Below, one piece after another: positions 1 through 59,740 of a DNA stretch of 64,000 nucleotides. The stretch comes from Melghirimyces profundicolus (GTDB taxonomy: Bacteria > Bacillota > Bacilli > Thermoactinomycetales > DSM-45169). The position numbers and the translations under genes were made by a program. Location: assembly GCF_003054245.1 (NCBI RefSeq), contig NZ_QBKR01000017.1:1-64000 (forward strand), in the 5' to 3' direction. The notes below the pieces were generated by a model. The model saw only the letters and a list, made by a program, of their open reading frames with translations, had not been told where the DNA came from and searched no databases. The first letter of the stretch is position 1, and every line of letters begins with the position of its first letter.

Positions 1-303
1 CACTCACAGAGCACAAGTCTCGCCGGGGTCGCTTCTCTCCCCGGTCTCGCTATGCACTCACAGAGCACAAGTCTCGCCGGGGTCGCTTCTCTCCCGGTCT
101 CGCTATGCACTCACAGAGCACAAGTCTCGCCGGGGTCGCTCTCTCCCGGTCTCGCTATGCACTCCACAGAGCACAAGTCTCGCCGGGGTCGCTCTCTCCC
201 GGTCTCGCTATGCACTCACAGAGCACAAGTCTCGCCGGGGTCGCTCTCTCCCGGTCTCGCTATGCACTCACAGAGCACAAGTCTCGCCGGGGTCGCTTCT
301 TCT
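1..303. repeat. Tandem repeat block, six units of 52-54 bp, cut by the window edge
   Basis: Six near-identical units start at 1, 55, 108, 160, 213 and 265, with no spacer between them. Each unit begins CACTCACAGAGCACAAGTCT. The block is the reverse-strand counterpart of the tandem units inside the dispersed element at 41460-41989, so it is probably the tandem part of another copy whose left part lies outside the window. The last unit is incomplete and runs into unrelated sequence at about 303 without a recognisable element end. Open reading frames here (for example 52-492) are only repeats read as protein. Confidence 0.9.
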
Positions 304-806: not shown

Positions 807-1075
807 AGTTTTCCTCCTCTGCTTTCAACGGTTGGGTGTGTGGATGACCCCTATGGGGTCGGCGGACGTGTTTTGCCACGCGACCGTTGGCCATCCAGCA
901 TGGAAATGGAAGTGCTGACTCTCCGCTCGAATCATCCTGTCGGCAGGGACAAAGCCCTTCGGGGCGCTTCAGCCTCTGAGTGCCCTCCCCCGAGATCCTT
1001 CGCGAACAGGATGGCAAAAGTCGCTTTGGCAATAACGCCTCCTCCACACGAGTGAATGGTGAATCGACAGTGGGG
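807..1075. other. relA-dtd spacer, no gene seen
   Basis: About 270 bases lie between the expected end of relA and dtd. I see no homologous reading frame, tRNA or clear terminator. The frames that cross it are unlike any protein family I recognise. Confidence 0.5.
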
Positions 1076-9524: not shown

Positions 9525-9605
9525 AAGCGTTGTGATGAATGTTCGTTTCGAGAAACGCCGGAGCGGCTTTGGGTAAATGCTGGCCGCTCACTTTTTCCAA
9601 CGCTT
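9525..9605 (+). mobile_element. Short complete copy (81 bp) of the dispersed MITE-like element
   Basis: It begins AAGCGTTGTGATG and ends CCAACGCTT. It is flanked on both sides by the 4-bp direct repeat CAAG (9521-9524 and 9606-9609), which marks an insertion. Only about 30 bases of the left end and 50 of the right end of the long form are present, including GGAGCGGCTTTGGGTAAATG. It looks like an internally deleted derivative of the 308-bp copy at 44476. Confidence 0.85.
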
Positions 9606-9888
9606 CAAGAGATCTTCGGAGACGCCTCCCATCAAAACTGGTTCCGACCGATCATCCAGAATCATCGGCAGAGGGACATTTCCCTGCCCGGAAAAAACCG
9701 AACAACCAATATGCTACTTGAAGCGTTGTGATTGATGGTCAGGCTCAGAAGAAGGGAAGCGTTAACAGCGACTTTGCTGTATAAAAGTGAAAGGCTTCAT
9801 CAGGCACCTCGTTCGGGGAGCGGGGGTATGTTCTCACCCTTTTTATCGCAGACTGGTAGCAAGAACTCTGTCAAAAGGAGATTCGGGA
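9606..9888. other. Spacer with a partial repeat copy, no gene seen
   Basis: The short frames here carry no ribosome binding site. The region holds a second element fragment at 9721-9780 and the likely promoter of the secreted protein gene at 9889. Confidence 0.4.
9721..9780 (+). mobile_element. Left-end fragment of the MITE-like element
   Basis: It starts AAGCGTTGTGATTGATG and keeps the internal GGGAAGCGTTAACAGCGACT, which matches the left arm of the copy at 44476 with substitutions and small deletions. No right end follows, so it is a decayed remnant. Confidence 0.65.
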
Positions 9889-32740: not shown

Positions 32741-32816
32741 AAGCGTTGTGAAAAAGCGAGCGGCAGCATTTACTCCAAGCCCCCTTTCTAGAAACGAACA
32801 TGAAATCACAACGCTT
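32741..32816 (-). mobile_element. Complete short copy (76 bp) of the MITE-like element, reverse orientation
   Basis: On the plus strand it begins AAGCGTTGTGA and ends TCACAACGCTT, perfect 11-bp terminal inverted repeats. The direct repeat CTAA flanks it exactly (32737-32740 and 32817-32820). The right-hand CTAA contains the stop codon TAG (minus strand) of the Gly/Pro-rich gene, so the insertion was immediately 3' of the stop and spared the protein. Confidence 0.9.
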
Positions 32817-41459: not shown

Positions 41460-41989
41460 AAGCGTTGTGATTTCATGTTCGTTTCGAGAAAAGAGGAAGC
41501 GTTTACCCAAAATAGCGACTTTGCTGTCCTGCCCAGCGGAGAATCAGCCTGCAAGGGCGTTCAGGGGCAAAAGCTTCTCTGTGTTGCATCCGAAGGCGTT
41601 TTGCCCCTGCCCGCAGCAGGATGATTCGGAGCGGACCGTGCAACCATCTCTGCAGGACAGCATAGCGAGACCGGGGAGCGTAAGCGACCCAGGCGAGACT
41701 TGTGCTCTGTGAGTGCATAGCGAGACCGGGGAGCGTAAGCGACCCAGGCGAGACTTGTGCTCTGTGAGTGCATAGCGAGACCGGGGAGCGTAAGCGACCC
41801 CAGGCGCGACTTGTGCTCTGTGAGTGCATAGCGAGACCGGGGAGCGTAAGCGACCCCAGGCGCGACTTGTGCTCTGTGAGTGCATAGCGAGACCGGGGAG
41901 CGTAAGCGACCCCAGGCGCGACTTGTGCTCTGTGAGTGCAACCGGAGCGGCTTTGGGTAAATGCCGCCGCTCACTTTTTCACAACGCTT
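41460..41989 (+). mobile_element. Long copy (530 bp) of the MITE-like element with five tandem units
   Basis: Begins AAGCGTTGTGATTTC and ends TCACAACGCTT. Inside are the same arms as in the 44476 copy, plus five 55-56 bp tandem units starting at 41661, 41716, 41771, 41827 and 41883. The flanks are CTCG (left) and CTTG (right), so the 4-bp duplication is imperfect here. No reading frame encodes a transposase; the frames reported across it only repeat the unit. Confidence 0.88.
41661..41938. repeat. Five tandem 55-56 bp units inside the element
   Basis: Each unit begins CATAGCGAGACCGGGGAGCG. Units are contiguous. The first two differ from the last three at several fixed positions (GACCCAGGCGAG versus GACCCCAGGCGC), which points to expansion by duplication within the array. 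Confidence 0.9.
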
Positions 41990-42047: not shown

Positions 42048-42082
42048 CAAAAAGCCCCGCGCCAAAAACGCGGGGTTTTTTT
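42048..42082. terminator. Rho-independent terminator, both directions possible
   Basis: CCCCGCG/CGCGGGG stem flanked by an A run and eight T. It lies 47 bases past the stop of the small gene at 42129 (minus strand) and just beyond the element on the plus strand. Confidence 0.85.
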
Positions 42083-42128
42083 GTTCAAAGGAGGGGACCG
42101 GCTGTCCAATCTGTCCGCTTCGGAAAAG

Positions 42129-44383: not shown

Positions 44384-44475
44384 CCTCTTCCACAAAAGGG
44401 GTTTCTTTCCCTGAAGAACCCTCCGGGTTTCATCTTTCCCAGGCAGGGTAAAGTTTTTCAAAACTCCCCTGCTAA

Positions 44476-44783
44476 AAGCGTTGTGATGAATGTTCGTTTC
44501 GAGAAAAGGGGAAGCGTTTACCCAAAATAGCGACTTTGCTGTCCTGCCCAGCGGAGAATCAGCCTGCAAGGGCGTTCAGGGGCAAAAGCTTCTCTGTGTT
44601 GCATCCGAAGGCGCTTTGCCCCCCTGCCCGCAGCAGGATGATTCGGAGCGGACAGTGCCTGCATCTCTGCAGGACAGCATAGCGAGACCGGGGAGCGCAA
44701 GCGACCCAGGCGAGACTTGTGCTCTGTGAGTGCAGCCGGAGCGGCTTTGGGTAAATGCTGCCGCTCACTTTTTCATAACGCTT
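44476..44783 (+). mobile_element. Reference copy (308 bp) of the MITE-like element with nested palindromes
   Basis: Terminal repeats AAGCGTTGTGA and TCATAACGCTT (one mismatch) are flanked by perfect 4-bp direct repeats CTAA (44472-44475 and 44784-44787). Inside, inverted repeat pairs are nested in order: TTTACCCAAA (44517) with TTTGGGTAAA (44746), GCTGTCCTGC (44538) with GCAGGACAGC (44669), GGGGCAAAAGC (44579) with GCTTTGCCCC (44613). One tandem unit (about 44677-44733) sits in the right arm. It lies between mgtE and the CNNM gene. Confidence 0.92.
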
Positions 44784-44888
44784 CTAATGAAATGGTTTTC
44801 TGGTAAGCTGGATTCAACCGATGAAAAACGGAAAGTCCGCACAAACTGAAATCGATACGGGTAAATTGACACGCGGGAGGTCGCTTCT

Positions 44889-46240: not shown

Positions 46241-46404
46241 TTGCTGTCCTGCAGGGATGGATGCACTGTCCGCTCCGAACCATCCTGCTGCGGGCAGGGG
46301 GGCAAAGCGCCTTCAGATGCATTTTGCCCCTGAACGCTGATTCTCCGCTGGGCAGGACAGCAAAGTCGCTATTTTGGGTAAACACTTCCCCTTTTCTCGA
46401 ATCG
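46241..46404 (-). mobile_element. Truncated internal copy of the MITE-like element
   Basis: This stretch matches the left half of the element (from GCTGTCCTGC to GTAAACACTTCCCC) in reverse orientation, without either terminal repeat. It includes the GGGGCAAA/TTTGCCCC arms. It lies about 15 bases past the CNNM stop and looks like a decayed remnant. Confidence 0.8.
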
Positions 46405-49549: not shown

Positions 49550-49576
49550 AAAAACCCCGTCCCTTAAGGGACGAGG
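49550..49576 (-). terminator. Terminator arm of the aroF T-box leader
   Basis: On the minus strand CCTCGTCCC/GGGACGGGG-type stem (GTCCCTTAAGGGAC core) followed by TTTTT, just downstream of the antiterminator sequence. Confidence 0.9.
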
Positions 49577-49835
49577 TTGACTCGCGGTACCACCCTTATT
49601 GGACCCGGACCGGGTCCCGCTTAAGCGACACACGTGATGGATCCCATGTGCCTGATCCGGATAACGGCGGACCTCCGGAACGGTGTGACCGGACGGCCGG
49701 CTCCACCGTCAACTCCAAGGTGTACTTCGAAACTCGGGCCGATACCGGTTCACAGCGGCCACCGGCTCTCTGCCATCGGATCCCCGGTCTCTACTTTGCC
49801 TCTTCAACGTGTTTGGGTGATGAAGTTTGAATTGC
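49550..49835 (-). promoter_or_regulatory. T-box riboswitch, tyrosine-type specifier candidate
   Basis: The minus-strand leader contains the T-box sequence AAGGGTGGTACCGCGA (49582-49597), the antiterminator 3' half, followed by a terminator. Upstream lies a Stem I region with AGAGAGCCGG and GAACCGGT. The specifier loop reads GAAGTACACC; the codon would be UAC (49722-49724), so tRNA-Tyr. The promoter has TTGACA at 49864-49869 and TAGATT at 49840-49845. The Tyr assignment rests on pattern alone. Confidence 0.9.
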
Positions 49836-59646: not shown

Positions 59647-59740
59647 AAGCGTTGTAAAAAGTGAGCGGCAGCATTTACCCAAAGCCGCTCCGGCTGCACT
59701 CACAGAGCACAAGTCGCTGGTTCATTCAATCACAACGCTT
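59647..59740 (-). mobile_element. Short copy (94 bp) of the MITE-like element, against the cax ribosome binding site
   Basis: Begins AAGCGTTGTAAAAAG and ends TCACAACGCTT (plus strand). Perfect direct repeats CAAG flank it (59643-59646 and 59741-59744). It contains a single partial tandem unit (CACTCACAGAGCACAAGTC). The right-hand target repeat overlaps AAGGAGG, the ribosome binding site of the Ca2+/H+ exchanger gene, so the insertion lies between that site and any promoter upstream. Confidence 0.9.

Follow-up and report, generated by a model that had tools for sequence, protein, structure and literature searches.

A MITE-like element with BOX-like architecture and a modular folded interior in Melghirimyces profundicolus

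At positions 44476-44783 of the window, the whole 64,000-nucleotide stretch of Melghirimyces profundicolus DNA that we analysed, lies a 308-bp element whose inverted repeats are nested one inside the other. What kind of element is this, and on what does its internal fold depend? The initial annotation had proposed that the entire element could form one long, bulged hairpin, that its design goes beyond a plain MITE, and that it may act as an RNA, for example as a 3' UTR processing or terminator-like structure.

The element and its relatives in the window

The features of the element and of the other copies in the window are given below with their coordinates and strand.

44472-44475, no strand: left copy of the 4-bp target duplication CTAA (flank reading)
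44476-44783, plus strand: the element, one-B copy, 308 bp (arms, fold, own-genome DNA search)
44476-44486, plus strand: left terminal inverted repeat AAGCGTTGTGA (sequence; pattern AAGCGTTRTGA)
44514-44526, plus strand: left arm of the outer stem, GCGTTTACCCAAA
44538-44678, plus strand: A core with a 29-pair conserved fold (model R2, 150.1 bits)
44579-44622, plus strand: innermost stem GGGGCAAAAGC...GCTTTGCCCC, which is A-core helix 6
44677-44734, plus strand: one B unit (R1 model score 85.4 bits; GCA shared with the next module lies within these bounds)
44746-44758, plus strand: right arm of the outer stem, TTTGGGTAAATGC
44773-44783, plus strand: right terminal inverted repeat TCATAACGCTT (sequence)
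44784-44787, no strand: right copy of the 4-bp target duplication CTAA (flank reading)
41460-41989, plus strand: another complete element; A core at 41523-41661, five B units at 41660-41940
46242-46404, minus strand: remnant with the left part and A core, without B unit and right end (query 20-204 at 84%; A core 88.8 bits)
1-298, minus strand: tandem B array with a period of about 52; the contig starts inside the array
890-1015, minus strand: decayed A core next to the B array, second subtype (40 bits, E 8e-9), with the CCATCC/GGATGG stem of other genera
9525-9605, plus strand: internal-deletion derivative with both ends kept (query 1-31 plus 260-308)
9721-9780, plus strand: left-end fragment (query 1-67, 75% identity)
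32741-32816, minus strand: internal-deletion derivative with both ends kept (query 1-36 plus 268-308)
59647-59715, minus strand: right-end fragment (query 239-308)

The three nested inverted repeats described by the initial annotation were all found in place. The outer arms, TTTACCCAAA (44517-44526) and TTTGGGTAAA (44746-44755), pair and lengthen to a 13-pair stem (44514-44526/44746-44758) that includes one G.U. The middle arms, GCTGTCCTGC (44538-44547) and GCAGGACAGC (44669-44678), pair with each other, and the inner arms, GGGGCAAAAGC (44579-44589) and GCTTTGCCCC (44613-44622), are one T short of perfect complements. All three arm pairs are nested within the terminal repeats and the CTAA...CTAA duplication. 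Thermodynamic folding of the 308-bp copy as RNA yielded -133.9 kcal/mol, compared with a shuffle mean of -114.4 (z -3.59), and none of 100 shuffles folded as well. The idea of one long, bulged hairpin thus held as far as strong folding is concerned, but not as a single hairpin: the predicted fold is branched and the element is modular, with a separate 56-bp unit at 44677-44732 that follows the A core and precedes the right outer arm. The longest closed ORF inside the 308 bp would encode 79 amino acids; judged by this length, the element carries no transposase gene.

The order of the parts is left end, outer stem, an A core of about 139 nucleotides, a variable number of B units and right end. 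The B unit corresponds to element positions 202-257 (about 55 bp). There are no B units in a copy from the same genus (L047), one in the element at 44476 and five in that at 41460, and the units stand in tandem at window positions 41660-41940 and 1-297. The remnant on the minus strand matches all 139 positions of the A-core model and keeps the inner arms, as had been noted at first sight. The two internal-deletion derivatives are about 80 bp each. B arrays were also observed at contig ends, both at window positions 1-298 and on several other contigs of this genome (e.g., C12, C14, C19 and C26). Because the arrays coincide with contig ends, the assembly probably underestimates their true lengths, and the arrays may account for the contig breaks.

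Copies, ends and a candidate transposase

A DNA search of the M. profundicolus genome returned at least 52 matches, with 40 of the 313 first-look candidates scored. The genome holds at least 78 A cores and, according to the R1 covariance model, at least 134 B units (all 134 scored candidates matched), including seven adjacent matches at C23:47107-47494. The terminal pattern AAGCGTTRTGA occurred 120 times on the forward and 114 times on the reverse strand of the 3.77-Mb genome, compared with 1 and 0 times, respectively, for a reversed-pattern control. We compared 27 two-ended copies, taken from a set of matched places with flanks that leaves out the window's 41460 copy. Identical 4-bp flanks were present in 13 out of 27 copies (permuted mean 2.3, maximum 8 in 2000 permutations), and 23 out of 54 flank words were YTAR.

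Dispersed copies with terminal inverted repeats at both ends, no transposase gene and a target duplication are what characterizes a MITE. By its ends, copy number and flanks, the element is a non-autonomous, MITE-like DNA element. Against this reading stand its G+C content of 57%, where MITEs are described as typically AT-rich (PMC4596501), and the 14 out of 27 two-ended copies that lack identical 4-bp flanks. We infer movement of the element from its ends, flanks and copy number.

A candidate partner came from a related genome, G007, in which two overlapping, frameshifted IS1182-type ORFs start 55 bp after CTAG-AAGCGTTGTGA, beside an element. The best NCBIfam match of these ORFs was NF033551, with 151 and 88 bits; the whole-protein cut-off is 270, and such a shortfall is expected of fragments. 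PF05598 and PF01609 scored above their cut-offs. We found no inverted end of this IS1182-type element up to the end of the G007 sequence examined. The M. profundicolus genome contains three weak relatives of the G007 transposase, none with an exact repeat nearby. Among 16 transposase matches in nine relatives, only one besides that in G007 had an exact repeat nearby (in G004; a 70% relative, 877 bp off and not at a border), and the loci fetched from the M. profundicolus genome and the nine relatives included no IS1182-type element bearing the AAGCGTT repeat at both ends. An IS1182-type transposase would likely be what moves the AAGCGTT family in trans, as the G007 arrangement suggests. The inverted similarity of the flanks of copies in this genome (see below) points the same way, since stem-loops are reported as targets of an IS1182-family member (PMC5678879).

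YTAR-like target sites are linked with IS701. Since the flanks of the element are YTAR-like, we also considered an IS701-like partner (PF13546) and rejected it: the two full-length IS701-family copies in this genome end in ACTCTAGATGAGCAAAAGC and GCTCATCTAGAGT, repeats that differ from those of the element.

The A core, the B unit and their distribution

We assessed the A-core fold in three alignments from different sets of genomes. The first, A1, comprises 32 A cores from six genomes (10 of 38 cores from this genome and 22 others), found by sequence similarity and aligned with MAFFT; they were drawn from 72 anchor hits, of which 10 were skipped at trimming and two of these restored by hand. 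In A1, 95.5% of cells pair, and 61 cells show double changes, compared with 25 after shuffling and at most 6 with slid partners. Double changes fall in 7 out of 29 pairs (shuffled 4.5; 19 out of 500 shuffles were as high). The A1 alignment itself served in part to predict this structure, and the innermost stem was added by hand, which favours the structure.

The second alignment, A3, contains 42 R2 matches (39 distinct) from 14 genomes, namely nine of family f5, three of f4 and two of f1 (G002 and G005). Here, 26 out of 29 pairs change on both sides, with 295 double-change cells compared with 82 shuffled and at most 54 slid, and the innermost stem occurs as GGGGCAA/TTTGCCCC, GGTGCAA/TTTGCACC and GTGGCAA/TTTGCCAC. 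The third, A4, contains 27 R2 matches from 19 genomes of families f27 and f17; it shows double changes in 25 out of 29 pairs and in 195 cells, compared with 48 shuffled and at most 74 slid. The R2 model served both to find and to align A3 and A4, and the two lean towards its structure; we judge, however, that model bias alone cannot account for the results of the slid controls and for the range of pair types in A3 and A4. These comparisons indicate that compensatory changes maintain the A-core fold in different families of Bacilli. With an internal fold kept in this way, the element does go beyond a plain terminal-repeat MITE. In A1, A3 and A4, largely unpaired stretches (CCUACCYAGCGGAG; GGAGCGGACAGU...ACUUCCUUGC, with variants) also look conserved by eye.

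The initial annotation had held that substitutions between copies that disrupt the pairings without compensation would speak against the fold. Such substitutions do occur among the copies in this genome, whereas compensation is strong across genera. In 34 whole-element copies from this genome, the consensus minimum-energy structure had 36 G-U, 36 A-C, 69 other mismatch and 4 compensatory cells, and the RNAalifold structure had 14, 8, 19 and 0, respectively. In 38 A cores from this genome, paired columns differ in 29 out of 2200 cells and unpaired columns in 137 out of 3025, so paired columns differ 3.4 times less often; the p value of 8e-12 presumes independent cells, which these are not quite. 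That these copies break pairs and yet vary less in paired columns fits selection on a spreading lineage, followed by decay at each site. In the outer stem, pair 11 switches between A-T and G-C, and pair 3 shows a G-U/G-C/A-U series; the outer-stem count took both strands of the palindrome and so each element twice, and these two pairs alone were used.

For the B unit, we aligned 55 of 79 distinct units from eight genomes (A2). Owing to indels, RNAalifold returned three pairs only, and the structure was then named by hand from variants, so the B covariation test is not independent. The structure consists of two hairpins. A GNRA-like loop caps the first one and in many units has GA on either side. 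Pairing was observed in 90.4% of cells, and 37 cells show double changes, compared with 19 shuffled and at most 14 slid. These changes are confined to 3 pairs, fewer than the shuffled mean of 4.2, which makes the B fold less certain than the A fold. Folded alone, six B units were not clearly better than shuffles (z -1.47 to +1.11). The B fold appears plausible but is not proven.

R2 matches were found in 21 out of 42 genomes of the order (9 out of 10 in family f1, 3 out of 3 in f4, 9 out of 23 in f5 and 0 out of 6 in the remaining three families), and R1 matches in 17 out of 42. Class-wide, the A core was present in 51 out of 398 genomes at E 1e-4, of which 32 lie outside the order (f27, f17, f28 and f30). 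A phylum-wide sample of 398 genomes gave the A core in the M. profundicolus genome only, which indicates that false A-core matches are rare; in both searches, at most eight candidates were scored per genome. Four f5 genomes (G026, G028, G029 and G032) had 8-25 B matches each and no A-core match at E 0.001, and B may spread separately from A.

Rfam 15 matched no family at the element; its single match in the window was a T-box leader at 49564-49816 on the minus strand (RF00230, 116.9 bits). A search of 44400-44850 up to E 10 returned three hits with E values of 1.9-9.2, far below the gathering scores, and 12 A-core loci of other genera gave no Rfam match. Two blastn queries found no match in plasmids and phages, the window element being compared with plasmids only. 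A literature search covering part of the matching papers found no description of these elements or of a class-wide A core; the rest might hold one.

The same inner modules occur within several different terminal-repeat families, with other genera having other ends. In G009 and G004, CAGGGCTGTTGATTAACC...GGCTAATCAACACGCCTG or close variants surround the A core; in G008 and G003, ends like GGGCGTGTCTG surround B alone; and outside the order, the ends around the A core differ again, all three sets of ends being read by eye. An additional unit of about 50 bp, D, precedes the A core in G001, G007, G004 and G009, and modules D, A and B adjoin one another at junctions that, as read by eye, start with GC. 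The D unit reads GCACCACAGGCAC...GGGCTGAAGCCC with variants and is sometimes repeated (L102, L103, L107, L109, L111, L112 and L124).

Some A cores form doublets. In G036 and G039, 13 opposite-strand pairs of listed A cores are separated by 141-340 bp (as in L166, at 8-141 on the minus and 350-484 on the plus strand), and four more are separated by 121-295 bp (L201, L206, L214 and L216). Among the matches in two lists, all 17 opposite-strand neighbours with less than 400 bp between them are divergent, the minus-strand core coming first, and no convergent pair was as close. Where the partners in G036 and G039 were aligned, they belonged to different subtypes. Same-strand neighbours occur as well (L198, L209 and L210). 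REPINs are doublets of two inverted hairpin units, which are palindromes of 20-40 bp. The 17 divergent pairs resemble them in having two inverted units close by; they differ in that the A cores are about 139 nucleotides long and that most listed A cores lie outside such pairs.

Known designs and possible explanations

The closest known design is that of the streptococcal BOX elements, which are likewise built as A-B(n)-C, with B absent or in tandem, and have terminal repeats, target duplications and predicted RNA folding (PMC3049150). Copy number is high in both, with 125 BOX elements in one genome (PMC3049150) and at least 78 A cores here. In Streptococcus suis, two kinds of end modules are found around one and the same set of B modules, and there are D modules as well (PMC3049150). 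The hosts and lengths differ, and in the streptococci surveyed BOX occurs almost exclusively in pneumococcus and S. mitis, while S. suis has related elements (PMC3049150), whereas the core of about 139 nucleotides described here spans families of a class. With two end modules around 0, 1 or 5 tandem B units, the element can be termed BOX-like and MITE-type by design; it is likened to BOX by architecture alone and not as a homologous member.

Three other systems invite comparison. The BrickBuilt MITE of Porphyromonas gingivalis also has MITE ends around an internal tandem minisatellite, but it has 23-nt units and belongs to another phylum, and the excerpted text mentions no conserved core fold (PMC4596501). 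The bcr1-bcr18 repeats are interspersed repeats in Bacilli too, of which bcr1-3 are MITE-like, while for bcr10 and bcr18 a conserved secondary structure and transcription as part of 5' UTRs are reported; they are described for the Bacillus cereus group, and we compared them with the element by description (PMC3446304). Insertion sequences of the IS1182 family, in which IS1272 is placed, share the transposase family of the G007 neighbour. Stem-loop targets have been reported and structure-targeted transposition proposed for IS1272, and palindromic targets are cited for some IS1182 members (PMC5678879). New IS1272 insertions left no target duplication (PMC5678879), unlike the 13 out of 27 copies with identical flanks here, and the element carries no transposase.

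Taking these results together, we consider it probable that this is a non-autonomous, MITE-like element of BOX-like architecture that uses its ends to spread and has a folded, modular interior, the fold being kept by the propagating lineage. An IS1182-type transposase supplied in trans would move the AAGCGTT family. The propagating lineage would need the fold, as plus-strand RNA or as folded DNA, individual host loci would not use it, and copies would decay after insertion.

Possibly, although we lean against it, the A core is instead a non-coding RNA with a function of its own, or an RNA domain to which a protein binds, which acts in trans for the host or the element, and the MITE ends merely distributed it. 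The compensatory changes across families of the class and the unpaired stretches that look conserved agree with this explanation. A plus strand that folds as RNA should show more G-U than A-C exceptions. In A1, the ratio was 17:9 in distinct cases (p 0.17). Among paralogues aligned with MAFFT, it was 20:7 (p 0.019, with 35 other mismatches), which splits into 4:4 for the copies in this genome and 16:3 elsewhere (p 0.004). The ratio was 37:14 in A3, for which the plus-strand model favours G-U; the B units gave 19:21 outside two mostly G-U columns and 35:21 with them. This excess favours RNA over folded DNA in a suggestive way only. It may stem partly from selection by the plus-strand model, and the copies in this genome, which were found by sequence, are balanced at 4:4. 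An RNA acting in trans also sits poorly with dozens of copies in several genomes, with the decay of the copies in this genome and with the lack of any gene orientation preference.

We regard it as unlikely, if only slightly more so, that the fold is selected as DNA, with extruded or single-stranded hairpins serving as transposase substrate or target and the nesting arising from hairpin units inserted into older hairpins. The flanks of the copies in this genome are similar in inverted orientation, which is expected if palindromes are preferred targets: even with the adjacent 4 bp left out, the sum was 134 compared with 111 permuted (0 out of 2000 as high), and 6 out of 27 copies had at least six inverted-matching flank bases compared with 2.5 permuted (76 out of 2000). 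The structure-targeted transposition proposed for IS1272 (PMC5678879) and the GC-starting junctions at which D, A and B adjoin point the same way. However, conservation is strong in the interior, including unpaired sequence, and not at the ends alone, and the asymmetry between G-U and A-C outside this genome is unexpected for double-stranded DNA.

The 3' UTR processing or terminator-like role put forward in the initial annotation, in which the host would have recruited the element, appears very improbable. The 308-bp copy folds strongly, the 41460 copy lies between an ORF end (41448) and a hairpin near 42050-42083 that looks terminator-like by eye, and large BOX elements have been reported as expressed (PMC3049150). 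Yet the orientation of neighbouring genes is even. Of 29 copies in this genome, 9 are codirectional with the element, 8 run against it, 6 are convergent and 6 divergent; copies without a neighbouring ORF on both sides were dropped, and three of the 29 had an ORF called across them. Called in the same way, 35 intergenic gaps of the window included 7 and 12 codirectional, 12 divergent and 4 convergent cases. For 30 out of 32 loci in other genera, the counts were 8 divergent, 8 with, 8 against and 6 convergent, and the other 2 lay inside an ORF. Although these tests rest on simple ORF calls, no fixed orientation behind genes was found, and an intrinsic terminator or 3' UTR class is not supported; the copies in this genome, moreover, freely break pairs. 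Even gene orientations agree with selection on a spreading lineage and decay at individual sites, as in the explanation that we prefer.

We give practically no credence to the nested repeats being a chance property of a G+C-rich repeat, with which the B units folded alone would be compatible: the z score of the whole element and covariation far above slid controls refute it for the A core (A1, A3 and A4), and the nesting of the arms in the 308-bp element is not due to chance.

We tentatively suggest, without favouring it, that the A core may be a structured RNA domain in parts of the class Bacilli, numbering up to dozens per genome and adopted by several hairpin transposon backbones because the RNA, by binding protein or acting on the transcript, aids spread or tolerance. 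If true, it would be a selfish RNA module common to several DNA transposons. A covariance model is now at hand for a high-copy element unmatched by Rfam 15. The usual view of bacterial MITEs and BOX elements is that they are parasites limited in sequence and specific to a lineage. The present fold recurs in different terminal-repeat families in several families of Bacilli, with nearly all of its pairs exchanged by compensation, while the individual copies decay at their loci. Function at the host site is thereby separated from selection on the propagating fold, and the question of why mobile hairpins keep internal structure becomes directly testable.
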